From: Azoarcus sp.
GTDB lineage: Bacteria > Pseudomonadota > Gammaproteobacteria > Burkholderiales > Rhodocyclaceae
Assembly: GCA_030656215.1 (NCBI GenBank)
Contig: JAUSOD010000021.1
Span: forward strand, 1 to 57,529
Reading direction: 5' to 3'
Length of the DNA: 57,529 nucleotides
The notes beneath the pieces are model-generated. The model did not search any database, was not told where the DNA came from, and was given only the letters and a program-made list of their open reading frames with translations. Position 1 is the stretch's first letter; every line of letters starts with the position of its first letter. Position numbers and translations under genes: made by a program. Positions 13,188-43,818 of this stretch are shown here, piece by piece.

Positions 13188-16100
13188 TCAATGACCCGCT
13201 CGCCGCGCCTGCAGGTCGATCTCGACCTGATGATCCGCCCCGTCGTTGACCAACGCGATCAGGCCGTCGGCGCGAAGCACCCCATCGACGCTCACTCGCT
13301 GTACATCCTCCTGGCCACCTTCGCTGGCTGGTGTCTGGACGACCGTGATGTGATACATCGTGTCCCGATAACGGTAGCGCATCCTGAACCCCGGCCAGTT
13401 CGCCGGCAGGCACGGCGTGACATGCAGGGTCTCGCCCGCGAGCCGCAGGCCGAGCAGGGACTCCGTCATCAGGCGGTACAGCCAGCCAGCCGAGCCGGTG
13501 TACCAGCTCCAGCCGCCCCGACCGATGTGGGGCGCAAGAGCATAGACGTCGGCCGCGACCACATAGGGTTCGGCCTTGTAGATCGCGACCCCCGTGGCGG
13601 ACAAGGCGTGGTTGGCCGGGTTGATCATGGTCATCAGCATCCACGCACGTTCGCGCTCGCCCAGCGCGGCGAAGGCCATTGCCGCCCAGATCGCGGAATG
13701 GGTGTATTGGCCGCCGTTTTCGCGCACGCCCGGCACATAGCCGCGGATGTAGCCCGGATCGAGGCTCGAGGTATTGAAGGGCGGGTCGAGCAATTGCATC
13801 AGGCCGTCGTCCGGGCGCACCAAGCGTTCGGCGACCGCATTCATCGCCCGCCGCACACGCCCCGCGTCGCCCACCCCGGATAGCACCGCCCAGCTCTGAG
13901 AGATCGAATCGATGCGGCACTCCTCGCCCTCAGCCGTACCCAGCGGGGTGCCATCGTCGAAGTAGGCACGCCGGTACCAGTCGCCGTCCCAGCCATGCTC
14001 CTCGAGGTTCCGTCCCAAGCGGCGCGCCTCCTCGCGGCAGGTGTCGCCAAAGCTGCCGTCGCCGTGGGCCCGCGCCACGCCTTCGAACTGGCGCAACACC
14101 TCGCACAGGAAGAAGCCGAGCCAGATGCTCTCGCCCCTGCCCCCGATGCCGACCAGGTTCATGCCGTCGTTCCAGTCGCCCGACCCCATCAGCGGCAATC
14201 CGTGCTCGCCAAAGCGCAGGCCGTGGCTGATGGCACGCACACAGTGTTGATACACGCTGGCGCTGTCGTCAGAGCGGCCAGGCAGGTCGTAGTAGGAGTC
14301 GTCCTCCGCCGGAACCGGCCGCCCCTCTAGAAAGGGTGCCGTTTCGTCGAGCACCCCGGTGTCCCCGGTTGCGCTCACGTAGCGGCACACCGCCAGCGGC
14401 AGCCACAGATAGTCGTCCGAACAGTGGGTGCGCACGCCGCGCCCCGACGGGGGATGCCACCAGTGCTGCACATCGCCCTCCCGAAACTGGCGCCCGGCGC
14501 ACAGCAGCAGGTGGGCGCGCACCCGCGCCGGCTCGGCGTGGATCAGGGCCATCACGTCCTGCAACTGGTCGCGAAAACCGAAGGCGCCGCCGGACTGGTA
14601 GTAGCCGCTGCGTGCCCACACCCGACAAGCCAGGGTCTGATATACCAGCCAGCCGTTGGCGAGCACGTCAAAGGCTGGATCGGGCGTTTCCACCTGCACC
14701 GCAGCCAGAGTCCGGTTCCAGTGCGCATGCACTGCATCGAGTGCGCCGCTCGCCGCCAGACTGCCACGGAAGCGCTGCACCAGCGCGGACGCATCGCCGG
14801 CATCACGCCCGACGCCAAGGCGGAACACGAGTTCGTGCGCGTCGCCGTCGGCCACATCGAAGACCACCTGGACAGCGGCACACGGATCCAGCGCAGCACC
14901 CACCTTGCCCGACAGGCGTGCGCGCCGCATCGCCGCCGGATTGGCGAGGGTCCCGTTGCGGCCGAGAAACTCGTTGCGGTCGCCGCTTACATTGCGCGTC
15001 GGACCATCGACGTCGAAGAACGCCACCCGGTCGGAAAACTCGGTGCTGTACGGGTTGCGTGCAAACAGCGCGCCGCTGCGGGGATCGATCTCGGTATTCA
15101 GGTGCATGGCCGTTTTCGCCTGCAGATCTCCCAGCACCCACTCGACGTAGCCGGTAGCGGACAGGCGGCGCGGACGGCCGGATTCGTTGCGCACTTTCAG
15201 TACCGAGAACTTGATCGCGGCGTCGATCGCGACATAGATCCAAAGCTCGGTATGGATGCCGTCGCAGCGGGTTTCAAACACGCTGTAGCCGAAGCCGTGG
15301 CGGACCCGATAGTGCCGTGCTGTGCGCGCTGGCAAGGGCGTGGGTGTCCAGACCAGGCCGCTTTCTTCGTCGCGCAGATAGATTGCCTCGCCGCCGGCAT
15401 CGCTCACCGGATCGTTGTGCCACGGCGTGAGGCGGAACTCGTGCGCGTTCTCGCTCCATGTGTACGCGACGCCACTTTCGGAGATCACCGTACCGAAGGA
15501 AGGATTGGCCAGCACGTTGGACCACGGCGCGGGCGTCACCGCACCGGGCGCGAGTCCAATTACATATTCGCGCCCGTCGGGGGTGAATCCGCCGAGGCCA
15601 TTGGCCAGGATCAGCGGCTGCGGGTCGGGCGCAAGGGCCATGGCTGACTCGCGCGCCATCGGGCGGCTCGCCACAAACTGCGGCGGGCGTGGCTCCGCAA
15701 GCCGGCGGTGATCGAGCTGCTCCTCCAGCGAACCTCGTGCATCGGTGATCACGACCCGTGCCACTGACTGCAGCAGGATGCGATCTTCGCTCGGGATCTG
15801 CTCGGCCGGGCGCACGAAGATGCCGCCCGGGCGGTCGACCACGCCGGCTTCGATGCCAGAGGTGATCATGCCCATGATCTGATCCTGCAGGCGCTGGCGG
15901 TAGCCGGCGTGATCCTCGTTCCAGATCACCAGATCCACGGCCAGTCCCTTCAGGCGCCAGTAGGCATGGGCCTGCACCAGCTGGCGCACGAGGTCGACGT
16001 TGGCGAAATTGGCGATCTGCAGCAGCACGATAGGCAGGTCGCCCGAGATTGCGTAGCCCCACAGGCCGGACTGGCTGCGGCGATTGCGGATCAGTAGCGC

Positions 16101-19100
16101 GGGGTCCGGGCGCAGCGAGGCATTGGCATGGATCACTGAACTGGCCAGCCGCGCATAGAGTTGGGCGTCGGCCTCGGTCGCATTGAGCTGGCGCAGCATC
16201 ACCTGGCCGTGGGTCCAGGCGAGATCGAACACACGATCGGCCAGATGGCGGTCCTGGTATTTGTCGATCAGGCACAGTGCTTCGTCGCGGGTCCGGGCGA
16301 TGCCCGACACGATGTCGATGGTGACCGACTGCTCGGGGTCGAGGCTGACCGGGCAGCGGATCGCGACGATAGGATCGAGCACCGGCCCCGCACTGCCCGA
16401 CAGCATCCCGGCCTCATGCATGGCTGCCGGGGCGGCCACGCTACGGGTGCGGCCGATAAAGCGTGCACGATCGGTCTCGTACGACATCTCGCCCGCCTCG
16501 GCGCCATGCACCGCCATCAGATGCAACATCCACGGCGAGCGCTCGCTGGCCGAGCGCGGCCTGCGCATGCACAGTATGGCGCGCCGCGCGGGCAGGATCT
16601 CGGTCTGCACGAACAGATTGCTGAATGCCGGGTGCAGCGCATCCGCGTCGGCCGGTGCGATCACCACTTCGGCGTAGCTGGTGAGTTCGATCTCGCGACG
16701 CTGGCCCGAGCGGTTGGTGATGCGGACCCGGCGCAGCTCGATGTCGTCCTCGGGCGACACGACGATCTCGGTGTAGGTCTCGATCAGGCCGGCGCCCGCG
16801 CCGGTGCCGATGGCGTCGCGGCGGCGAAACTCGGCGCGGCCCTCGGAGAAGATCGCCTCATAGAGCTGCGCGCGCCGCAGTGTGGGCTGATGCGCGGTCG
16901 ACCAGTAGGCCCCGCTGTGCAGGTCGCGCACATAACAGAAGGTGCCGCGATTGTCGCAGGTGCCGTCCTCGCGCCAGCGCGTGAGCGCGAGATCGCGCCA
17001 GCGGCTGTAGCCCCCCCCGGCATTGGTGAGCATCACGTTGTAGCGGCCGTTGGACAGGAGCTGCACCTCGGGCGTCGCGGTGTCGGGGCTGTCGAACACC
17101 CGGATCAGCATCTCCGTGGTGTCGGCGGTCGAGTGCTCGGCAAATCGCTGAACGGTCTGCGAGAACAGCGCACCCGCCTTGGGAACGCGCTCCTGCAGCA
17201 GCAGCATGACCGCCTGGAAACGCGGGTCCGACTCGAACCGCGCCTGCATCGGACGATCGAGGAGCAGATAGGCGAGCGCAAGCAGACTCATGCCCTGGTG
17301 GTGAGCCATGAAGGAGCGCACCACCACCCGCGACTGGCCGCGGCGCTGACGCGCCGGGGTGTAGTCGATGGCCTCGTGGAAACCGAAACGGCCAGAGAAG
17401 CCCTCGGCGGCAAGGCGCTGCAGGTTGCGGCAGGCCTCTTCCGGGGCCACCATCAGCGCCATCACCGAGGCGTAAGGGGCAATCACGAGGTCGTCGGCGA
17501 GTCCGCGCTTGAGCCCCAGACCCGGCACCCCGAAGGCTCGATACTGGTAGTTGAGATGCACGTCCACCGTGTTGTAGCCGGACTCCGAAATCCCCCACGG
17601 CACGCCGCGCTGCCGGCCGTACTCGATCTGCCGCGCGACCGCCGCCTTGCAGGTCTGATCGAGCAAGGTGTTGTCATAGGTCGGCATCACCAGCAGGGGC
17701 ATCAGGTACTCGAACATCGAGCCGCTCCACGACAACAGGGCGGGCTCGCCGCCGACGCGGGTCAGCAGACGCCCGAGCGCGAACCAGTTCTCCTGCGGCA
17801 CCTGGCCCTGGGCGATGGCGACGAAGCTGCTCAGCCGTGCTTCGGATGCAAGCAGGTCGTAATAGCTTGCATCGGCGCGGCCTTCGGACACGTTGTAGCC
17901 GATGACCAGCAGATGACGCCCCTTGTCATACAGGAAGTCGTACTCCATGCAGGAGAGTTCGCACGCGTGCACCGCCAACGCCTCGATTTGCGCGATTCGC
18001 GCTCGCGCGCGCTGGCTCCCGACCGCGAGTTGAGCGCGAAAGGCGTCCAGCCCGTCGCGCTGCGCATTGCTTGCCGCCGCGTCGAGCCGGCGCACGATCT
18101 CCGGCACCAGCGCCTCATCCAGCGTCGCCAGCGTGCGCAGCGACGGACAACCGACGAGCGCCTCCAGTCCACCCGGTACGGGCGACAACAAGAGCCAGGG
18201 GGCAAGCAGCTCGAGCTCGGTCAGCAGTTCGCGGCATTGGCGCGTCAGCGCTGCGGCCCAGAAAGCCGCGTCGCTGTCGGACGCCGTATCGTCCCGGGTC
18301 AGGAGTCTGTCCACGATGCCGGGCAGCGCCGCAGCGCGGGATTCGAGGCGAAGCAGGGTCGCATGTACGGCCGTGAGGCTTGCCGGGGGTGCCGCCAGTA
18401 CCGCGTCCAGATCGCTGCGGAGTGCGTGCAGCGAATCCGCCGCCGCGCCGCCGGGCGCCATCGCGTCCTCCACCGCGTCGAGTGTGTCGGCGAGGCCTTG
18501 AAACAGCCGCGGCGAAGCGACCGCGTCGTCGGCCAGTGCGAGCAGACCCGCGCTGAGCGTCAGCAGATGGCCGGCAAGGTTGCCGCTGTCGACCGTCGAG
18601 ACATACAGCGGCGGCAGCGGATCGAGGGTCTCTGTGTCGTACCAGTTGTAGAAGTGCCCGCGGTGGCGCGCCAGCCCGTCCATCGTGCGCAGGGTATTGG
18701 CCGTGCGCGTGAGCAAGACGCCGCCGCCGATGTAGCCGAAGTCATAGGCCGCCAGGTTGGCCAGCAGCGCCATGCCGATATTGGTCGGTGAGGTACGGTG
18801 GGCGACCGACACAACACGATAGGCCTGGCTGTTGTCGGGCGGCAGCCAGTGATCCGCGGCGCCGACATGGGTTTCGAAAAAACCCCAGGTCCGCCGCGCA
18901 AGGGCACGCAGAAAGCGCGTTTGCAGCGGCGTCAGATGCGCCTCGCGGCGCGGCAGCGGACGGCTGATCCACCATGCGATCAGCGGCGACCCCAGCCACA
19001 GCAGCAGTATCGGCAGCGCCACGGTCAGGGCCGAGGGGCCCACGGTGGTGCTCACAAGAAGTAGAAAGATCGTCACCACGATGGCTGTGGCCGGCCCAGC

Positions 19101-22061
19101 CCACATCGAGCGCAGCGCAGCGCTCAGGTCGCTGCGCCGGGCCAGCTTGCGCTCGATTTCGGACGACGGACTCCATTCCAGCAGGCGCCGGCGGCTGACA
19201 CACATCCGCCACAGGGTGCGCGCGATCGCGTCCAGACTGAGAAAGGCCTCATAGGGCAGGCATGCAATCTCGAATACAAGCTGCGCCAGCTGGCGCGATA
19301 CCGAGTGCCCGACGGTACCAAGGTGTTGCATCGGCGAGATCTCATCGGGCTTGCGCACAAGTTCGAGCATCGCTGCGAACAAGGCAGGCAACAGCAGGAT
19401 GGCGATCACCACCAGGGTCCACAACCACGGCTGCCCCAGTAGCGTCCACCCGAGCACCAGCAACAGCGTCAGCGCCACGGGTACGAGGCTGCGCCGGAGA
19501 TTGTCGATCAGCTTCCATTGGGACAGCGCAGACAGCGGATTCGACTGACGGTGCTCGCGCTTCGCCCCGGCACTCGGGCCACAGCCGCAGGGCACCCACG
19601 GCAAGATCCAGCCACCGAGCTGCCAGTCGCCCCGCATCCAGCGCTGGCGGCGACTGACGTCGGCGCTGTAGCGCGACGGATAGTCTTCGAACAGTTGCAC
19701 GTCGCTGAGCAGGCCCGAGCGGGCGAAGCAGCCTTCGATCAGGTCGTGACTGAGAATCCGGTTCTCGGGGAAACGCTCACCCAGCGCCTGCTCGAAGGCA
19801 TCCACGTCGTAGATGCCCTTGCCGATGAAGGAGCCCTCGCCGAACACATCCTGATAGACATCCGAGACTGCACGCGTATACGGATCGAGACCCGGCTCGC
19901 CGCCGTACAGGCGCGCATAGCGCGAGCGATTGCTCCCCGGCAGGCTTACCGCAACCCTCGGCTGCAAGATGCCGTAGCCCTCCACCACGCGCAGCCGGCC
20001 CGCGTCGTATCGGGGACGATTCAAGGGGTGCGCCATCGCACCGACGAACTGGCGCGCCACATCGCGCGGCAACTGGGTGTCGGTGTCGAGCGTGATCACA
20101 TACTTCACGTTGGACAGGATGGCCGTGTCGCCCACGACCAGGTCGAAACCGCCGCCCGCCTGCCCCGGCGCCCTGCCGCGCAGCAGCGCGTTCAGGTCCG
20201 CCAGCTTGCCGCGCTTGCGCTCGTAGCCCATCCACACCCGCTCCTGCGGGTTCCAGCTGCGGGCACGGTGAAACAGGAAAAAGATGTCGCCGCTGCCCTG
20301 ACGTGTGCCATCCGCGTACTTGCGGTTCAGCGCCTCGATCCGCGTTCGCGCAAGCTGTTCGAGCGCGGCATCCTCGGGCAGCGTCGCCTGCGCCGCGTCG
20401 AGAAAGTCGGTGAGCAGCCCGAAATGCAGGCTTTGGTCCCGGTTGGCCAGGAAGCGGACCTCGAGCGCTTCGACCAGAGTCTCGATGTCATCCGCGCTGG
20501 TAAGCATGGTCGGCACCACCACCAGCGTGCGCAGCTGGGTGGGGATGCCCCTTGAGAAGTCCATCCGGGGCAAGGGATGCGGCGTCACCAGCACGGTCGC
20601 CAGCCAGTTCACGAGCGCCACCGCGAGCTGGCTCGCCGCCAGCAGCGCAATGCCCGATATCAGGATGCCCACCGGCAGCATCACCCAACCGGGCGTATCG
20701 GACGGCCAGCGAAGCGGTCCGGTCCACGCCAGCAGGCTAAGGCCGATGACGGACACGATCAATGCAATCGCACCCAGGTACAACGGCAGGGACCAGCGTG
20801 CCGCTGCCCCGCGCATGGATTCAAGGGCCGAACGACGGGGCCGGACGATGCGCTCGAGTTGGCGCTCGCCCTTGTCGATCAGGTAGTAGCCGACGTGGGC
20901 CTCGCGCGCGTCGGCACCACCACCTGCTGCGGCCGCGGCGCCGGCGTGTGCCAGCGCCACCACCTGGCGCGCCACTTCGCCTTCGCTGAGACGGCTGCGG
21001 CGGGCAATCTCTTCGGTTGCATGGCGATAGCGGTCGCGGGTCGCAAATTCCATCCGCCCATAGACGCCGCCCGGGTCGCCGCGCAGGGTCTGCTCGACTT
21101 CGCTCATGGTTTCGACGAACTCGCGCCAGTCCATCGCGCCCAGCACCCGAAGGCTGCCGATGCTGTTGCTGATCGAAACCTGATCGGCCGCCTGCTGCTG
21201 GTTCTCCAGCAGCACCAGTTGCTCGATGGTCTGGCCCGACTCGGACAAGCGTTGTTCGATCCAGGTCAGCGGCAGGGCCAAAGCCGAGCCCCGCCCCTGC
21301 AGCTTGCGCGCGAGTTCGGCCACAAAGGCAGTACTCATGGGCGGACCGGATCGCGCCATGTCGGCGACGACCAGGATCAGGCTCTTCGGATCGGTTTCAG
21401 CAGCCGAGATCATCTGATCGGCCCACTGAGCGGCCAGCGTGTGCTCGGCCCAGTCTTGCGAGATGCGCGCGCTGACCCGGCGCAGGTTCTCGATCACCGC
21501 CAGCCGGAGCATGATCGGAATCGCCCACAGCTCGCCCAGTTTCAGGCTGGAAACGCTCTGGTAGGCCGCGACGAAGCGGCTCAGACTATCGGTATCCACG
21601 CGGCCGTCACCGTGGGCGATGGTTTCGAGCGCGATGTCATACACCCGCGGGCGCCCCGCCGAGGGCCCACGCTCCAGACGCGGGAGTTCGCGGCTGTAGC
21701 CACTGGGCAGGTGCCGCTTGGCGGTGCGGATCTGCTCGTCGATGAGGTAAAAATTGTCGAGCAGCCACTCGCCGGCCGGCGTGATGCGTCGCCCTTCGGC
21801 GACCGCGACGGTAAGCAGCCGGCACACGCCGACCAAGGTATTCTCGTTCTCGGACAGCCGCGCCAGGAGCCGGTCCGGCGAGCCTGGGGCGCTCAAGCGA
21901 TGGGCCGCCGCAAGCGCCTTGCCGTGCTGCGCCATCTGATCGGCGTTGAACAGCTCGGCTCGCAGGGGCGCATCGTCAGGGGCTGGCCGTGGGCTCCTGT
22001 CAGGGACGAATCGCGACTTCAATGCCTGCAGAAGGCCGCTCAGGCCCGTGTTTTTGGTCAA
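13188..22061 (-). CDS. ndvB: Cyclic beta-1,2-glucan synthase (NdvB/ChvB/Cgs-like)
   Basis: This 2957-residue membrane enzyme should make periplasmic cyclic beta-1,2-glucan from UDP-glucose, an osmoadaptation and surface-interaction polymer. Domain order: soluble N-terminus (about 1-415), membrane segments (about 424-446 and 455-485), a GT84 glycosyltransferase with D659-T-D661 and the QRW motif at Q806-W808, further membrane segments (about 850-897 and 990-1034), a glycoamylase-like region (about 1100-1530), and two GH94-type regions (about 1670-1960 and 2200-2900). The last has FRDQLQD near 2494 and W2630-N-D2632-G-M with the GH94 catalytic Asp, which trims chain length by phosphorolysis. 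Alphaproteobacterial homologues are of similar size (about 2850). The only start after the upstream stop is TTG at 22061 with no clear ribosome site; the first ATG is at 21935. Translational coupling to the small gene 18 bp upstream is likely. Confidence 0.93.
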   Translation of the reverse strand: MTKNTGLSGLLQALKSRFVPDRSPRPAPDDAPLRAELFNADQMAQHGKALAAAHRLSAPGSPDRLLARLSENENTLVGVCRLLTVAVAEGRRITPAGEWLLDNFYLIDEQIRTAKRHLPSGYSRELPRLERGPSAGRPRVYDIALETIAHGDGRVDTDSLSRFVAAYQSVSSLKLGELWAIPIMLRLAVIENLRRVSARISQDWAEHTLAAQWADQMISAAETDPKSLILVVADMARSGPPMSTAFVAELARKLQGRGSALALPLTWIEQRLSESGQTIEQLVLLENQQQAADQVSISNSIGSLRVLGAMDWREFVETMSEVEQTLRGDPGGVYGRMEFATRDRYRHATEEIARRSRLSEGEVARQVVALAHAGAAAAAGGGADAREAHVGYYLIDKGERQLERIVRPRRSALESMRGAAARWSLPLYLGAIALIVSVIGLSLLAWTGPLRWPSDTPGWVMLPVGILISGIALLAASQLAVALVNWLATVLVTPHPLPRMDFSRGIPTQLRTLVVVPTMLTSADDIETLVEALEVRFLANRDQSLHFGLLTDFLDAAQATLPEDAALEQLARTRIEALNRKYADGTRQGSGDIFFLFHRARSWNPQERVWMGYERKRGKLADLNALLRGRAPGQAGGGFDLVVGDTAILSNVKYVITLDTDTQLPRDVARQFVGAMAHPLNRPRYDAGRLRVVEGYGILQPRVAVSLPGSNRSRYARLYGGEPGLDPYTRAVSDVYQDVFGEGSFIGKGIYDVDAFEQALGERFPENRILSHDLIEGCFARSGLLSDVQLFEDYPSRYSADVSRRQRWMRGDWQLGGWILPWVPCGCGPSAGAKREHRQSNPLSALSQWKLIDNLRRSLVPVALTLLLVLGWTLLGQPWLWTLVVIAILLLPALFAAMLELVRKPDEISPMQHLGTVGHSVSRQLAQLVFEIACLPYEAFLSLDAIARTLWRMCVSRRRLLEWSPSSEIERKLARRSDLSAALRSMWAGPATAIVVTIFLLLVSTTVGPSALTVALPILLLWLGSPLIAWWISRPLPRREAHLTPLQTRFLRALARRTWGFFETHVGAADHWLPPDNSQAYRVVSVAHRTSPTNIGMALLANLAAYDFGYIGGGVLLTRTANTLRTMDGLARHRGHFYNWYDTETLDPLPPLYVSTVDSGNLAGHLLTLSAGLLALADDAVASPRLFQGLADTLDAVEDAMAPGGAAADSLHALRSDLDAVLAAPPASLTAVHATLLRLESRAAALPGIVDRLLTRDDTASDSDAAFWAAALTRQCRELLTELELLAPWLLLSPVPGGLEALVGCPSLRTLATLDEALVPEIVRRLDAAASNAQRDGLDAFRAQLAVGSQRARARIAQIEALAVHACELSCMEYDFLYDKGRHLLVIGYNVSEGRADASYYDLLASEARLSSFVAIAQGQVPQENWFALGRLLTRVGGEPALLSWSGSMFEYLMPLLVMPTYDNTLLDQTCKAAVARQIEYGRQRGVPWGISESGYNTVDVHLNYQYRAFGVPGLGLKRGLADDLVIAPYASVMALMVAPEEACRNLQRLAAEGFSGRFGFHEAIDYTPARQRRGQSRVVVRSFMAHHQGMSLLALAYLLLDRPMQARFESDPRFQAVMLLLQERVPKAGALFSQTVQRFAEHSTADTTEMLIRVFDSPDTATPEVQLLSNGRYNVMLTNAGGGYSRWRDLALTRWREDGTCDNRGTFCYVRDLHSGAYWSTAHQPTLRRAQLYEAIFSEGRAEFRRRDAIGTGAGAGLIETYTEIVVSPEDDIELRRVRITNRSGQRREIELTSYAEVVIAPADADALHPAFSNLFVQTEILPARRAILCMRRPRSASERSPWMLHLMAVHGAEAGEMSYETDRARFIGRTRSVAAPAAMHEAGMLSGSAGPVLDPIVAIRCPVSLDPEQSVTIDIVSGIARTRDEALCLIDKYQDRHLADRVFDLAWTHGQVMLRQLNATEADAQLYARLASSVIHANASLRPDPALLIRNRRSQSGLWGYAISGDLPIVLLQIANFANVDLVRQLVQAHAYWRLKGLAVDLVIWNEDHAGYRQRLQDQIMGMITSGIEAGVVDRPGGIFVRPAEQIPSEDRILLQSVARVVITDARGSLEEQLDHRRLAEPRPPQFVASRPMARESAMALAPDPQPLILANGLGGFTPDGREYVIGLAPGAVTPAPWSNVLANPSFGTVISESGVAYTWSENAHEFRLTPWHNDPVSDAGGEAIYLRDEESGLVWTPTPLPARTARHYRVRHGFGYSVFETRCDGIHTELWIYVAIDAAIKFSVLKVRNESGRPRRLSATGYVEWVLGDLQAKTAMHLNTEIDPRSGALFARNPYSTEFSDRVAFFDVDGPTRNVSGDRNEFLGRNGTLANPAAMRRARLSGKVGAALDPCAAVQVVFDVADGDAHELVFRLGVGRDAGDASALVQRFRGSLAASGALDAVHAHWNRTLAAVQVETPDPAFDVLANGWLVYQTLACRVWARSGYYQSGGAFGFRDQLQDVMALIHAEPARVRAHLLLCAGRQFREGDVQHWWHPPSGRGVRTHCSDDYLWLPLAVCRYVSATGDTGVLDETAPFLEGRPVPAEDDSYYDLPGRSDDSASVYQHCVRAISHGLRFGEHGLPLMGSGDWNDGMNLVGIGGRGESIWLGFFLCEVLRQFEGVARAHGDGSFGDTCREEARRLGRNLEEHGWDGDWYRRAYFDDGTPLGTAEGEECRIDSISQSWAVLSGVGDAGRVRRAMNAVAERLVRPDDGLMQLLDPPFNTSSLDPGYIRGYVPGVRENGGQYTHSAIWAAMAFAALGERERAWMLMTMINPANHALSATGVAIYKAEPYVVAADVYALAPHIGRGGWSWYTGSAGWLYRLMTESLLGLRLAGETLHVTPCLPANWPGFRMRYRYRDTMYHITVVQTPASEGGQEDVQRVSVDGVLRADGLIALVNDGADHQVEIDLQARRAGH

Positions 22062-39767: not shown

Positions 39768-41155
39768 GTGAGCAGTCGATTGAGGTGATGCTGGTGGAGG
39801 ACGACGACGCCTTGCGTGCAGCGGCGCGGCAGACCTTCGTCCTCGCCGACATTCCGGTAAGCGATTTCGCCCGCGCCGAGCCGGCGTTGGTAGCGCTTGC
39901 CGACGGCGTGCCGGCGGTGGTGGTCACCGATGTACGGCTGCCCGGCATCGACGGCATGACGCTGCTGCGGCGCACACGGGCGATCGATGCCGACCTGCCG
40001 GTGATCCTGGTGACCGGTCACGGTGACGTCCGCATGGCGGTGGAGGCGATGCGCCTCGGTGCCTACGACTTCATCGAGAAGCCGTTCGCCCCCGAGCGCC
40101 TGGTGGAAGTCGTTCAGCGCGCGATCGACAAGCGCCGTCTGGTGCTCGAAAACCGCGCATTGAAGGCCCGGCTGGCGAGCAACGACGAGGTCGAGGCGCT
40201 GATCGGCGACAGCGCGCCGATGCGCGAAGTCCGCCGCCTGGTGACCGATCTCGGCGATACCGATGTCGACGTGCTGGTCCTCGGCGAGACCGGCACCGGC
40301 AAGGAAAGAGTGGCGCGCGGCCTGCATGCCGCCGGCCGTCGCCACAAGGGGCATTTCGTCGCGATCAACTGCGCCGCGCTGCCCGAAAGCGTGTTCGAAA
40401 GCGAGATGTTCGGGGTCGAGCCCGGCGCCTACACCGGCGCCACCCGCAGCCGCGCGGGCACGATCGAGCGCGCCAGCGGCGGCACCCTGTTCCTCGACGA
40501 GATCGAGGGCATGGCCCTGCCGCTGCAGGCCAAGCTGCTGCGCGTGCTGCAGGAGCGGGTGGTGGAGCGCTTGGGCTCGAACCGGCTGGTGCCGGTCGAT
40601 TGCCGCATCGTCGCCGCGACCAAGCTCGACCTCGCGGCCGAGGCCGCCGCCGGCCGTTTTCGGGCCGATCTCTATTACCGCCTGAACGTGGTATCGATCC
40701 CGCTGCCGCCGCTACGCGACCGCCGCGAGGACATCCCGCAGTTGTTTGCCGCCTTCTGTCTGCAGGCCGCCGAACGCTACCGCCGCCCCCAGCCCGATCT
40801 GTCGGTCGAGCTGTTCGACTGGTTGATGGCGCAGGACTGGCCGGGCAACGTACGCGAACTGCAACACGCGGCCGACCGTTTCGTGCTCGGGCTGTGGCGG
40901 GTCAATGTCGACACCCCCGGCAGCGGCCCGAACAGCCTTGCGCAAAGGGTGGCCGGCTTCGAACTGTCCTTGATCGAAGGCGCCCTGCGGCGCAGCGGTG
41001 GTGACGTCGCCGCCGCGGCCGAAGCCCTCGGCCTGCCGCGCAAGACCCTATACGACAAGATGGCAAAGTATCGGGTAGAGGTCGAGCGCTACCGCTCGGG
41101 AGAGCTGCATCCATCCGCGGCAGTGCCGGATGTGCGGCATCCACGAAGTCAATAG
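39764..41155 (+). CDS. dctD: DctD-type sigma-54 response regulator
   Basis: This 463-residue activator has a receiver domain (about 5-120; phospho-acceptor D56 in VTDVRLPGIDGM), an AAA+ sigma-54 interaction domain (about 145-380; Walker A GETGTGKE, Walker B GTLFLDEIEGM) and a Fis-type HTH (about 415-450; VAAAAEALGLPRKTLYDKMAKY). The sigma-54 contact loop reads GAYTGA rather than GAFTGA; Tyr at that position is a conservative change but worth noting. Phosphorylated by the DctB partner, it should activate the sigma-54 promoter at 34332. It overlaps dctB by 4 bp. Confidence 0.94.
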   Translation: MSEQSIEVMLVEDDDALRAAARQTFVLADIPVSDFARAEPALVALADGVPAVVVTDVRLPGIDGMTLLRRTRAIDADLPVILVTGHGDVRMAVEAMRLGAYDFIEKPFAPERLVEVVQRAIDKRRLVLENRALKARLASNDEVEALIGDSAPMREVRRLVTDLGDTDVDVLVLGETGTGKERVARGLHAAGRRHKGHFVAINCAALPESVFESEMFGVEPGAYTGATRSRAGTIERASGGTLFLDEIEGMALPLQAKLLRVLQERVVERLGSNRLVPVDCRIVAATKLDLAAEAAAGRFRADLYYRLNVVSIPLPPLRDRREDIPQLFAAFCLQAAERYRRPQPDLSVELFDWLMAQDWPGNVRELQHAADRFVLGLWRVNVDTPGSGPNSLAQRVAGFELSLIEGALRRSGGDVAAAAEALGLPRKTLYDKMAKYRVEVERYRSGELHPSAAVPDVRHPRSQ

Positions 41156-41224
41156 CGATGCTTCACCGGCCTGATCGGCGTGGCGCAGGCGCATTCAATA
41201 GGAGCTTGCCGCGAGCCCGTCGAG

Positions 41225-41521
41225 TCACATTCCTTCGATTAACTCCCTGCCTCTGACGAAACCGAGATCCTCGGCGATGCTTTGAGTGGAGTAGAAGATC
41301 TCACGATCCGACTCGGCACGGGCGCACTCGTCCTCCGGCGTCCCCTCACCGTTGCCGGTAACCCTGACCTTGAACGTCCATTGCTGTCCATGGCCGGCTA
41401 GCTCTTCATTGTCCACGGTACGCGGAGCCGTACAGACATGAATTTGTCTGCCGTGGTACTCCTGCGTCTTCCATTGTGCAGGCTCGTCTGGTGTAGCGTG
41501 CTGACGTAGGGTGTTTTCCAT
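41225..41521 (-). CDS. Hypothetical protein, 98 residues
   Basis: The family was not recognised. The protein is hydrophilic and soluble, with one strand-rich core (WKTQEYHGRQIHVCTAPR, QQWTFKVRVTGNG) followed by an acidic helical end (DECARAESDREIFYSTQSI). It has two cysteines and no signal peptide. GAGGGCAC about 8 bases upstream supports the ATG. It is flanked by the dctD 3' end and a 391-bp divergent region. The codon pattern looks like a real gene, but it could be a small lineage-specific protein of any role. Confidence 0.55.
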   Translation of the reverse strand: MENTLRQHATPDEPAQWKTQEYHGRQIHVCTAPRTVDNEELAGHGQQWTFKVRVTGNGEGTPEDECARAESDREIFYSTQSIAEDLGFVRGRELIEGM

Positions 41522-41633
41522 GGAAGTGCCCTCAGTTGATTAAGGCCGATCGGCCGCAAGCGATACGAAATCGCTTTAAAAATGATGTCCCCCTCCGCAC
41601 TGGAATTCCGTTCGCTGCCGCACGTACTGCATC

Positions 41634-41657
41634 AAGCGAACCTGATCAGGTTCGCTT
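41634..41657. repeat. Perfect 24-bp palindrome in a divergent promoter region
   Basis: The half-site AAGCGAACCTGA is followed directly by its exact reverse complement, giving 24 bp of uninterrupted symmetry centred on TGATCA. It lies in the 391-bp gap (41522-41912) between the hypothetical gene (minus) and the oxidoreductase-UbiA fusion (plus), where a regulator operator would be expected. A smaller imperfect hairpin (GGCGGAG-AAC-CTCTGCC) follows near 41673, and TATACT at 41822-41827 could be a -10 element for the fusion gene. No gene is seen in the gap. Confidence 0.75.
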
Positions 41658-41912
41658 TCGGCGGAGCCCGAGGCGGAGAACCTCTGCCCCACCGAACGAA
41701 AATCACGTTGAACAAACCGCTACGTGCCTACAGCCGGGCGCCGGCCGAGTATTCCTGCTCACCTTTCTCCGTGCCAGCCAAGTTCATTGGAGACTGACCC
41801 ATTGGTTCCAGCACGCGCGCCTATACTTAAGGCAAAAGGCCCGCCGCCGACGTGGGAGCCGCCCGGGCAGGCCTCCGGGATCCTCATTTACCCACACTGG
41901 GAGGTCTGCGCG

Positions 41913-43421
41913 ATGAAGGTGCTGGTCATCCTCGGTCATCCGCGCAGCCCGAGCCTGTGCGCTGCGCTGGCGGCGGCCTATGCGGCGGGCGCGCGCGCGG
42001 CCGGGATGGAGGTGGAGGAGCTCGATCTTGGCCGGCTCGACTTCGACCCGGACGTGCATCCGGTGTCGCCGCGCGATCAGCCGCTGGAGCCCGACCTGGA
42101 GCGCGCGCGTGAGCTTATTGCCTGGGCCGATCACCTCGCGTTCGTCTATCCGGCCTGGTGGGGCGTCGGCCCGGCGCGTCTCAAGGGCTTCCTCGACCGC
42201 GTGTTGTTGCCCGGCTTCGCCTTCCACGAGCGCGACGATGGTCGCCTGGAGGGGCTGCTCGGCGGGCGAACCGCGCATCTGGTGACCACGCTGGACATGC
42301 CGCCGTGGGTCTATCGCTTCATCTACCGGGCCCCCGGCCACAACGCCATGCGGCGCTCAACGCTGGGGTTCTGCGGGATCGAGACGACGCGCATCCTGGC
42401 CTTGGGGCCCGTGCGCGATTCCGGGCCCGCGCACCGCGCGGCCTGGATGGAGCGCACACGCGAGCTCGGATTCTCGCTGGGGCAGGGCGCGCGCAGCGTG
42501 GCCGACCGGTGTGTCGGCAAGCTCGCGGCGTGGGCCAAGGCGTTGCGCCTGCAGTTCTACCCCATGACCTGGGGTGCCTACACGGTCGGGGCCCTGGGCG
42601 CTGCGGCGCTGGCCGGCAGGTGGGATCCGTGGCTCTACTGGCTCGGCTATGCCCTGCTGTTCTTCGCCGAAGCGGCCACGGTGTTCATCAATGAGTGGTT
42701 CGATTACGACAGCGACCGGCGCAACACCCGTTTCGGCCCCTTCAATGGCGGCTCGCGCGTACTCGTCGACGGCGATCTGGGCTTGCGCGAGTTGCAGCTG
42801 GGCGTGGTTGCGAGCGCGATGGTGGCGTTCGCCTGCATCGGGCTGATCCTCGACCGCTTGGCCAGCCTGCCACTGTTGGCCGTGCTGGGGGCGATCCTGG
42901 TGCTGGGACCGGGATACACGGCCCCCCCGCTCAAGCTCGCCTGGCGCGGGCTGGGGGAGCTCGATGTGGCGCTGACCCACAGCCTGGTGGTGATCCTGCT
43001 CGGCTACCTGCTGCAAGGCGGTGGCTGGGCAGACGCTTTCCCTTGGCTGGTGAGCGTGCCGCTGTTCGTGGCGGTCCTGCCCGCCATCATCTTGTCCGGC
43101 ATACCGGATCTGGAAGCCGACCGGGCGGCGGGGAAGGCGACCCTGGCCGTGCGCCTGGGCTCCGCACGGGCGCTGTTGCTGGCCGCGGCACTGGTCGCGG
43201 TAGCGCCGCTGCTGGTGCTGCTGCTAAAAAATAGCCCGGCGCTGCGTGGCAGCTTCGACGGCCTGCTCGCGTGGGTGCTGCCGCATGCCGTCCTGCTCGG
43301 CGTGATGCTTTACCGCCATTGGCGGCAAGGCGCCCTAGCGGTGCGCATCGACCCGCTGATGGTGGTGGCGCTCAGCTATATCCTGTGGTTCGTCGTGGTG
43401 CCGCTGCTACACCTGTGGTGA
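41913..43421 (+). CDS. Fusion of NAD(P)H:quinone oxidoreductase (flavodoxin fold) and UbiA-family prenyltransferase
   Basis: This 502-residue protein has two parts. Residues 1-200 are a Flavodoxin_2 domain: VLVILGHPRSPSLCAALAAA (FMN/FAD phosphate loop), YPAWWGVGPARLKGFLDRVL, and an HLVTTLDMPPW stretch, as in MdaB/NQO1-type quinone reductases. Residues about 215-500 are a polytopic UbiA-type prenyltransferase with both Asp motifs: N260-EWFD264-YDSD268 and the later SGIPDLEADRAAGK. The link NRFGPFNGGSR (here NTRFGPFNGGSR) follows the first motif as in the superfamily. GGGAGG precedes the ATG at 41913. The combination suggests a quinone ring reduced and prenylated by one polypeptide, but the substrate is unknown. 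It could also be MenA-like. No ubi/men neighbours are present. Confidence 0.85.
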   Translation: MKVLVILGHPRSPSLCAALAAAYAAGARAAGMEVEELDLGRLDFDPDVHPVSPRDQPLEPDLERARELIAWADHLAFVYPAWWGVGPARLKGFLDRVLLPGFAFHERDDGRLEGLLGGRTAHLVTTLDMPPWVYRFIYRAPGHNAMRRSTLGFCGIETTRILALGPVRDSGPAHRAAWMERTRELGFSLGQGARSVADRCVGKLAAWAKALRLQFYPMTWGAYTVGALGAAALAGRWDPWLYWLGYALLFFAEAATVFINEWFDYDSDRRNTRFGPFNGGSRVLVDGDLGLRELQLGVVASAMVAFACIGLILDRLASLPLLAVLGAILVLGPGYTAPPLKLAWRGLGELDVALTHSLVVILLGYLLQGGGWADAFPWLVSVPLFVAVLPAIILSGIPDLEADRAAGKATLAVRLGSARALLLAAALVAVAPLLVLLLKNSPALRGSFDGLLAWVLPHAVLLGVMLYRHWRQGALAVRIDPLMVVALSYILWFVVVPLLHLW

Positions 43422-43452
43422 GCCTGCGCGACAACGGATGGCGCGTACGCCC

Positions 43453-43773
43453 TTAAACCGGCATATTCATGATGTCCTGATACGCGCTGACCAGGCGGTT
43501 GCGCACCTGCACCATCTGTTGAAACGACAGACTGGCCTTCTGCAGGTTCACCATCACATCCTGCAGGTTTACGTTGGGGTCGCCAGCGGAGAAATCCTGC
43601 GCCATCGAGCGGGCATCCTTCGACGCTGCGCTCACGTCTTTCAAAGTGTTGTTGAGCACGTCGGCAAAATTGACCCCGCCGGCAACGTCCTCGCCCTGCA
43701 CCGGTTTGTTCTGGGCGGCCTGAGACACCGAGCGTAGCTCGGACAACATTTGATCTATTCCGCGGGTTTCCAT
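43453..43773 (-). CDS. fliE: FliE, flagellar hook-basal body protein
   Basis: This 106-residue export-apparatus/rod junction protein connects the MS ring (FliF) to the rod. FliE marks are FADVLNNTLKDVSAASKDA, the DPNVNLQDVMVNLQKASLSFQ motif and the terminal VRNRLVSAYQDIMNMPV. The ATG at 43773 follows GGGGAG by 5 bases; a GTG two codons earlier is less well placed. It lies alone behind a sigma-54 promoter, downstream of flrC, instead of leading the fliF operon as in most species. Confidence 0.95.
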   Translation of the reverse strand: METRGIDQMLSELRSVSQAAQNKPVQGEDVAGGVNFADVLNNTLKDVSAASKDARSMAQDFSAGDPNVNLQDVMVNLQKASLSFQQMVQVRNRLVSAYQDIMNMPV

Positions 43774-43818
43774 GATCACTCCCCCGGGCTTCGGGTTACC
43801 TGGTTCTGAGAATAGCAG

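Follow-up and report, generated by a model that had tools for sequence, protein, structure and literature searches.

A conserved fusion of a quinone reductase-like domain with a UbiA-type prenyltransferase: a candidate two-step enzyme in scattered bacteria

INTRODUCTION

A single open reading frame (ORF) in a 57,529-nt stretch of Azoarcus sp. DNA (assembly GCA_030656215.1, contig JAUSOD010000021.1, positions 1 to 57,529, forward strand; the whole stretch is referred to below as the window) appears to join a quinone reductase-like flavodoxin domain to a UbiA-type membrane prenyltransferase. Is this one real protein and, if so, what might its two halves do together? An earlier note, made from the sequence of the window, had proposed that an aromatic or quinone ring is first reduced and then prenylated. 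We examined the integrity, distribution, ancestry, and genomic context of the fused gene and compared it with the nearest known systems.

RESULTS

One open reading frame encodes two domains

The fused ORF starts with an ATG at 41913 and ends with a stop codon at 43419 to 43421, and the in-frame, two-domain chain claimed in the earlier note was borne out by Pfam matches to Flavodoxin_2 and UbiA. The open frame extends upstream of this ATG, from a GTG at 41724. Given the GGAGG upstream of the ATG and the annotated start of the Roseinatronobacter copy described below, we place the start at 41913. The ORF has a GC content of 69.8%, versus 65.4% for the window, and a GC3 of 87.5%, versus 85.1% and 82.1% for two other window genes. 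Scanning of positions 41150 to 43800 for a promoter or terminator found none. The features of the locus are as follows.

41900..41904, + strand: Shine-Dalgarno-like GGAGG, 8 nt before the ATG (read from the sequence)
41913..43421, + strand: fused coding sequence, 502 amino acids, NQO-like flavodoxin domain plus UbiA prenyltransferase domain (ORF, Pfam, homologues)
41913..42443, + strand: Flavodoxin_2/NAD(P)H quinone reductase-like domain, residues 1 to 177 (Pfam PF02525, 116.2 bits)
42150..42164, + strand: PAWWG, residues 80 to 84, identical in all 12 fused copies at P80, W82, W83, and G84 (alignment)
42444..42530, + strand: tail of the reductase half plus basic linker, residues 178 to 206, with no invariant residue in 193 to 206 (alignment of 12 copies)
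42531..43418, + strand: UbiA-type membrane prenyltransferase domain, residues 207 to 502, Pfam match at 227 to 471 (PF01040, 73.3 bits)
42690..42716, + strand: first Asp-rich motif NEWFDYDSD, residues 260 to 268, with N260, D264, and D268 invariant in 12 copies (alignment)
42915..42920, + strand: Y335-T336, invariant in 12 copies and aligned with a YT of UBIAD1 (alignment)
43107..43121, + strand: second Asp-rich motif DLEAD, residues 399 to 403, with D399 and D403 invariant in 12 copies (alignment)

The Flavodoxin_2 match (E = 2e-33; cut-off, 27 bits) was accompanied by an FMN_red match over residues 1 to 98 (55.6 bits; cut-off, 24). When a profile of the fused family was searched against solved structures, the first relative of the reductase half was the NADPH quinone oxidoreductase 3lcm (E = 3.2e-30). 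H9, P10, P80, W82, W83, G84, P87, L90, K91, D95, and R96 were invariant in 12/12 fused copies, and the invariant residues of this half lie where the chain aligns with solved quinone reductases, the family core segments being present; PAWWG aligned with the corresponding segment of these enzymes. We assume that PAWWG and the other invariant core segments have a flavin role, and the reductase half is predicted from its family to use NAD(P)H and flavin.

The UbiA match was likewise above its cut-off (E = 2.4e-20; cut-off, 34.2 bits), and both Asp-rich motifs were present, as the earlier note had claimed. The second residue of the first motif was Glu in 9 of the 12 copies and Asp in the other 3. 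In PMC4106721, the UbiA superfamily consensus comprises two such motifs, NDXXDXXXD-like and DXXXD, the first of which has a Mg2+/diphosphate role in UbiA enzymes, and Y174/T175 of UBIAD1 are described as equivalent to Y139/S140 of AfUbiA. Y335 corresponds to the near-universal active-site tyrosine of UbiA enzymes and was found in 12/12 fused copies. The hydropathy plot showed several hydrophobic segments between residues 234 and 502 at a resolution too coarse to count helices (8 to 9 for the UbiA superfamily), and an AlphaFold model of the fused protein from a two-row alignment had a mean pLDDT of 38.4. Prenyl transfer by the UbiA half is predicted from its family.

When solved structures were searched by profile, the UbiA half had UBIAD1 (8djk; E = 4e-9) as its first relative and chlorophyll a synthase (E = 1.3e-7) as the next; with the whole-length fused-family profile, however, chlorophyll a synthase (E = 1.9e-7) came ahead of UBIAD1 (E = 2.2e-6). 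MenA-type models were among the best UbiA-side NCBIfam matches, although all NCBIfam matches listed for the fused protein scored below their cut-offs; TIGR00751 scored 40.8 bits against a curated equivalog cut-off of 102.15.

The fusion is intact in 12 genomes or records

A search for the same architecture across genomes, as the earlier note had suggested, found the fusion intact in 12 genomes or records: the window's genome, 10 other assemblies, and one Roseinatronobacter plasmid. The full-length homologues, at 49 to 78% identity, keep the domain order in single open frames, and no split pair of genes was found. In an alignment of the 12 intact copies, 99 columns were invariant, 48 of them in residues 1 to 192, none in residues 193 to 206, and 51 in residues 207 to 502. 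All 12 copies keep the domain order; the linker is not invariant. Catalytic positions were kept in both halves of the 12 copies, so neither of the ways in which the two-domain reading might have failed, separate genes in relatives or loss of catalytic residues, was encountered.

By the Nei-Gojobori method, the reductase half had a dN/dS of ~0.12 and the UbiA half one of ~0.19 when the window copy was compared with that of an Aquisalimonas metagenome-assembled genome (MAG); for genomes G706 and G1114, the values were 0.14 and 0.19, respectively. In the other two pairs of this test, dS was high or saturated. Since full-length homologues occur in open frames and dN/dS lies well below 1 in both halves, the fused frame is not a chance read-through. 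An assembly error or frameshift joining two genes is vanishingly improbable and was rejected, since the intact copies are independent and come from 12 assemblies or records, one of them a complete plasmid whose annotation gives the gene as a single coding sequence.

The fusion is sparsely distributed and dispensable

Full-length homologues were found in 4/399 genomes of the order of the window's genome (its own, G310, G167, and G103), in 5/369 of its class (its own, G638, G417, G706, and G568), and in 2/398 of its phylum (its own and G884). Since these partly overlapping sets were even draws and candidates were picked by a first look, the counts are lower bounds. The Aquisalimonas MAG copy is 78% identical to that of the window, and G1114, of the same genus as G706, also carries an intact fusion. 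Among 124 plasmid records matched in a further search, one covered at least 80% of the query; this copy (WP_277806833.1) lies on a 613-kb plasmid carried by Roseinatronobacter sp. S2, an alkaline-spring alphaproteobacterium, and is annotated as one coding sequence, "NAD(P)H-dependent oxidoreductase," an annotation in which the prenyltransferase half has been overlooked. In total, the fusion spans nine families of the window's class plus the Aquisalimonas MAG and the alphaproteobacterial plasmid. None of 16 candidate viral contig stretches encoded a relative.

Interrupted copies were found in two more genomes. G140, which belongs to the order of the window's genome, has a reductase piece in one frame and part of the UbiA half in another that overlaps it; in G1120, which is the second of the 2/11 matching genomes in the order of G638, an in-frame stop lies within the reductase half, and an assembly error is also possible in this genome, which is 88% complete. 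In the order of G884, G884 itself was the sole carrier among 293 genomes. Given that the fused gene is often missing from close relatives (G479, and 9 of the 11 genomes in the order of G638) and is interrupted in G140 and G1120, it is dispensable; the two interrupted copies suggest that it can be lost.

Each half of the fused proteins forms one group

The reductase-domain tree (midpoint root, with bootstrap values not fully settled) contained 42 rows: 10 fused copies (those of G1114 and Roseinatronobacter were not included), the broken G140 copy, and 31 stand-alone relatives drawn from the 47 reductase-only matches in the order, class, and phylum searches, the other 16 being left out. The ten fused copies and G140 formed one clade (100/99). 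The stand-alone relatives end at most 12 residues past the domain, and when 29 UbiA-family queries were run against 37 loci around these relatives, no UbiA gene turned up. The loci comprised 31 with ~1.5-kb flanks (for L017, at the end of a contig, one flank was shorter) and, for six genomes, loci of ~19 kb as well. In a control, 12/12 fused or broken loci matched the same queries.

In the UbiA-half tree, the 12 intact fused copies grouped together (96/98) on the MenA-like side of the tree and were separate from the Escherichia coli MenA, UbiA, CtaB, and HAD-UbiA rows; several reference rows were long, and the tree leaves the deeper placement of the group open. Two subgroups were common to both trees, window plus Aquisalimonas plus G310 plus G638 and G167 plus G884, as joint inheritance of the halves would predict. 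G310 and G638 were ordered differently in the two trees, and the reductase-tree pairings G103 plus G568 and G417 plus G706 lacked resolution in the UbiA-half tree. Taken together, the trees of the two halves appear compatible with a single fusion event.

Carriers look like ubiquinone-type bacteria with an extra prenyltransferase

Eleven carriers were tested for UbiG, menB, and MqnA/D matches, namely, 10 with an intact copy (the set did not include G1114 or Roseinatronobacter) and G140. UbiG exceeded its cut-off in 11/11, whereas menB exceeded its cut-off in 0/11; weaker menB matches were common, the best being that of G140, the genome with the broken copy (325.1 bits versus 342.7). PF02621 (MqnA/D) was over its cut-off in 1/11, the window's own genome (29 bits versus 26), a marginal match that leaves a menaquinone (futalosine) route possible there. 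Given these ubiG and menB counts, ordinary menaquinone synthesis is an unlikely role for the MenA/UBIAD1-like prenyltransferase of the fusion. That the protein is an ordinary MenA was rejected on its score, its place in the tree, and the lack of menB over cut-off.

A strong stand-alone UbiA-family match besides the fusion was present in 10/11 carriers, the exception being G706. Since the fusion is the sole UbiA-family match in this genome, which is 96% complete, we considered whether it replaces UbiA in ubiquinone synthesis. Two other genomes of this genus led us to drop the idea: G1114 (75% complete) carries a strong stand-alone match in addition to the fusion, and G479 carries the stand-alone one, which makes a gap in G706 likely. 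The fused protein therefore looks like an extra prenyltransferase in ubiquinone-type bacteria.

Other UbiA-family proteins were noticed in these genomes. A second, stand-alone MenA-like UbiA protein of ~320 amino acids occurs at L108 (G000:C55:246500-249500, in the window's own genome), L077 (G167:C26), and L109 (G413:C40); the window's own genome and G167 hold it without menB over the cut-off. Reading of the sequences identified HAD-UbiA fusions in two carriers of the fused gene, L085 in G310 and L087 in G638, so the statement of the earlier note that UbiA enzymes normally stand alone was too strong. Presumably, these two are PRK08238-like. L107 (G413) likewise has, by reading of its sequence, a HAD-like domain ahead of a UbiA domain.

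No specific neighbor is shared among the carriers

Pfam searches of seven window neighbors identified a sigma-54 response regulator, a sensor kinase, a DctM TRAP transporter protein, a DUF1850 protein, an NMT1-like binding protein, and FliE; the seventh, a 98-amino-acid ORF, had no Pfam match. Among these seven, to which the scan was limited, there were no quinone genes, in agreement with the earlier observation that no ubi/men genes are near. Elsewhere in the window, positions 13188 to 22061 of the minus strand hold a 2,957-codon open frame, possibly encoding a giant protein.

We compared the window and the plasmid with ORF clusters of ~16 to 20 kb around eight other carriers, for which 30 of the nearest ORFs were searched against Pfam. 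No specific neighbor common to the eight carriers, the window copy, and the plasmid copy was found, which suits a self-contained function; what recurred around the eight was a few clusters of broad families (judged by their scanned members, response regulators, sensor kinases, EAL/GGDEF proteins, and ABC transporters). On the Roseinatronobacter sp. S2 plasmid (L088, 14355 to 25933), the fused gene lies near genes for a sigma-70 family factor, PRC-barrel proteins, a cytochrome P450, catalase, superoxide dismutase, a nitroreductase, and a GMC oxidoreductase, a neighborhood that looks like a stress gene cluster.

Two arrangements were each absent at the other scanned carriers. In G103 (L046, 7006 to 8782), the fused gene and the two electron transfer flavoprotein (ETF) subunit genes diverge, and in the Aquisalimonas MAG (L032, 6032 to 7963), its divergent partner is a Na/H exchanger-TrkA_N (Kef-like) gene. 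Kef channels have KefF-type regulators, which are flavodoxin-like.

DISCUSSION

A self-contained enzyme that may reduce a quinone and then prenylate the quinol

The fused gene, found in bacteria that are scattered and distantly related, is real and conserved and is a candidate for a two-step enzyme. We adopt the reduce-then-prenylate idea of the earlier note, which fits the data, and our best explanation, to which we give roughly even chances of being right, is a self-contained enzyme that would reduce a free quinone with NAD(P)H and then prenylate the resulting quinol, its substrate, prenyl donor, and activity all being predictions from sequence. It would be one membrane protein with two active sites, both on the cytoplasmic face. 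At the N-terminal site, the NQO-like flavoprotein, with NAD(P)H as reductant, would convert a free quinone to the hydroquinone, the nucleophile that a UbiA enzyme needs; the C-terminal UbiA domain, of the MenA/UBIAD1-like side, would then add an isoprenoid chain from a prenyl diphosphate, and this chain would anchor the hydroquinone in the membrane. The ring may be a small naphtho- or benzoquinone that the cell either takes up or forms as a by-product, but this is a guess. So is the proposal that both sites act on the same ring: the joining of the halves in one chain is our sole basis for assigning them a shared substrate.

In AfUbiA, both Asp motifs are on the cytoplasmic side and the N terminus is probably cytoplasmic, according to PMC4106721; this topology would place the soluble reductase on the side where the prenyltransferase cavity opens. 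The same text proposes reduced menadione as the acceptor of UBIAD1, a parallel for prenylation of a reduced quinone. Both the sparse distribution of the fused gene and its dispensability weigh against our explanation.

Alternatives to reduction before prenylation

The reductase half might instead act after prenylation or on the bulk quinone pool, holding the product (or ubiquinone) in its reduced form so that it serves as a membrane antioxidant. The UbiA half would then prenylate a phenol or hydroquinone that can be used without being reduced first. We consider this unlikely. The 31 stand-alone reductase relatives examined, which have no prenyltransferase beside them, and the stress-like setting of the Roseinatronobacter gene (sigma factor, PRC-barrel, catalase, superoxide dismutase, and nitroreductase) speak for it; however, among the 10 copies with inspected nearest neighbors, one had such a setting, and prior reduction explains the joining of the domains equally well.

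It is less probable still that the UbiA half prenylates a nonaromatic or nonquinone acceptor, as in carotenoid elongation or the making of a lipid or pigment, with the flavodoxin half reducing the product or supplying electrons. Some UbiA members do use carotenoid or lipid acceptors. The fused group lies apart from the included MenA rows at an open position on that side of the tree, the score of chlorophyll a synthase against solved structures comes near that of UBIAD1, which it follows, and one remote relative, in Ilyobacter, adjoins a lycopene cyclase gene. Against these points, the best UbiA-side NCBIfam matches include MenA-type models, UBIAD1 ranks first among solved relatives, the partner half is of the quinone reductase type, and no carotenoid gene was among the carrier neighbors scanned or listed.

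Quinone reductases of this family detoxify quinones, so the protein could also be a membrane-bound quinone reductase whose UbiA half serves chiefly as an anchor, but this is very unlikely, since all 12 copies retain the catalytic Tyr and the metal-binding Asn/Asp residues of UbiA without change and the UbiA-half dN/dS is ~0.19 in two pairs.

Implications of coupled reduction and prenylation

Returning to reduction followed by prenylation, when a gene fusion is conserved, there is good reason to believe that its two activities cooperate. Should the coupling hold, a UBIAD1/MenA-like prenyltransferase would be supplied by its own quinone reductase, the fused gene would offer a one-gene system for testing whether ring reduction must precede prenylation, and an undescribed prenylated quinone would be expected in bacteria that seemingly rely on ubiquinone. 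A bolder and doubtful extension is that the protein is a natural single-chain "NQO plus UBIAD1" that captures free naphthoquinones (e.g., menadione), reduces them, and prenylates them to a menaquinone-like membrane quinone in hosts that have ubiG and apparently lack a menaquinone pathway. Reduction and then prenylation would in that case be coupled within one protein; to our knowledge, these steps are not joined in animals.

Comparison with known systems

NADPH:quinone oxidoreductases of the Flavodoxin_2 family (3lcm/4f8y, NQO1, NQO2, and MdaB) are soluble, stand-alone proteins. The reductase half aligns with 3lcm from end to end and with NQO2 over residues 3 to 162, but, unlike these enzymes, it carries a membrane prenyltransferase in the same chain. 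UBIAD1, the vertebrate menaquinone-4 synthase, matches nearly all of the UbiA half, with the second Asp motif and the YT pair aligned, whereas its chain showed no reductase-domain match and the similarity is remote (39.6 bits). MenA (TIGR00751, 1,4-dihydroxy-2-naphthoate prenyltransferase) belongs to the same superfamily and has similar motifs, but the fused UbiA half is separate from E. coli MenA in the tree. The HAD-UbiA fusions also place a soluble domain before a UbiA domain, but their N-terminal domain is different and their UbiA domain is on another branch of the tree.

Literature searches on such fusions, on UBIAD1 and menadione, and on the UbiA superfamily, which covered titles and the starts of abstracts and had supplements and most subscription journals outside their scope, yielded no description of this fusion among the matches listed. 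Flavodoxin_2 and UbiA domains are both of known kinds; what is new is their conserved joining.
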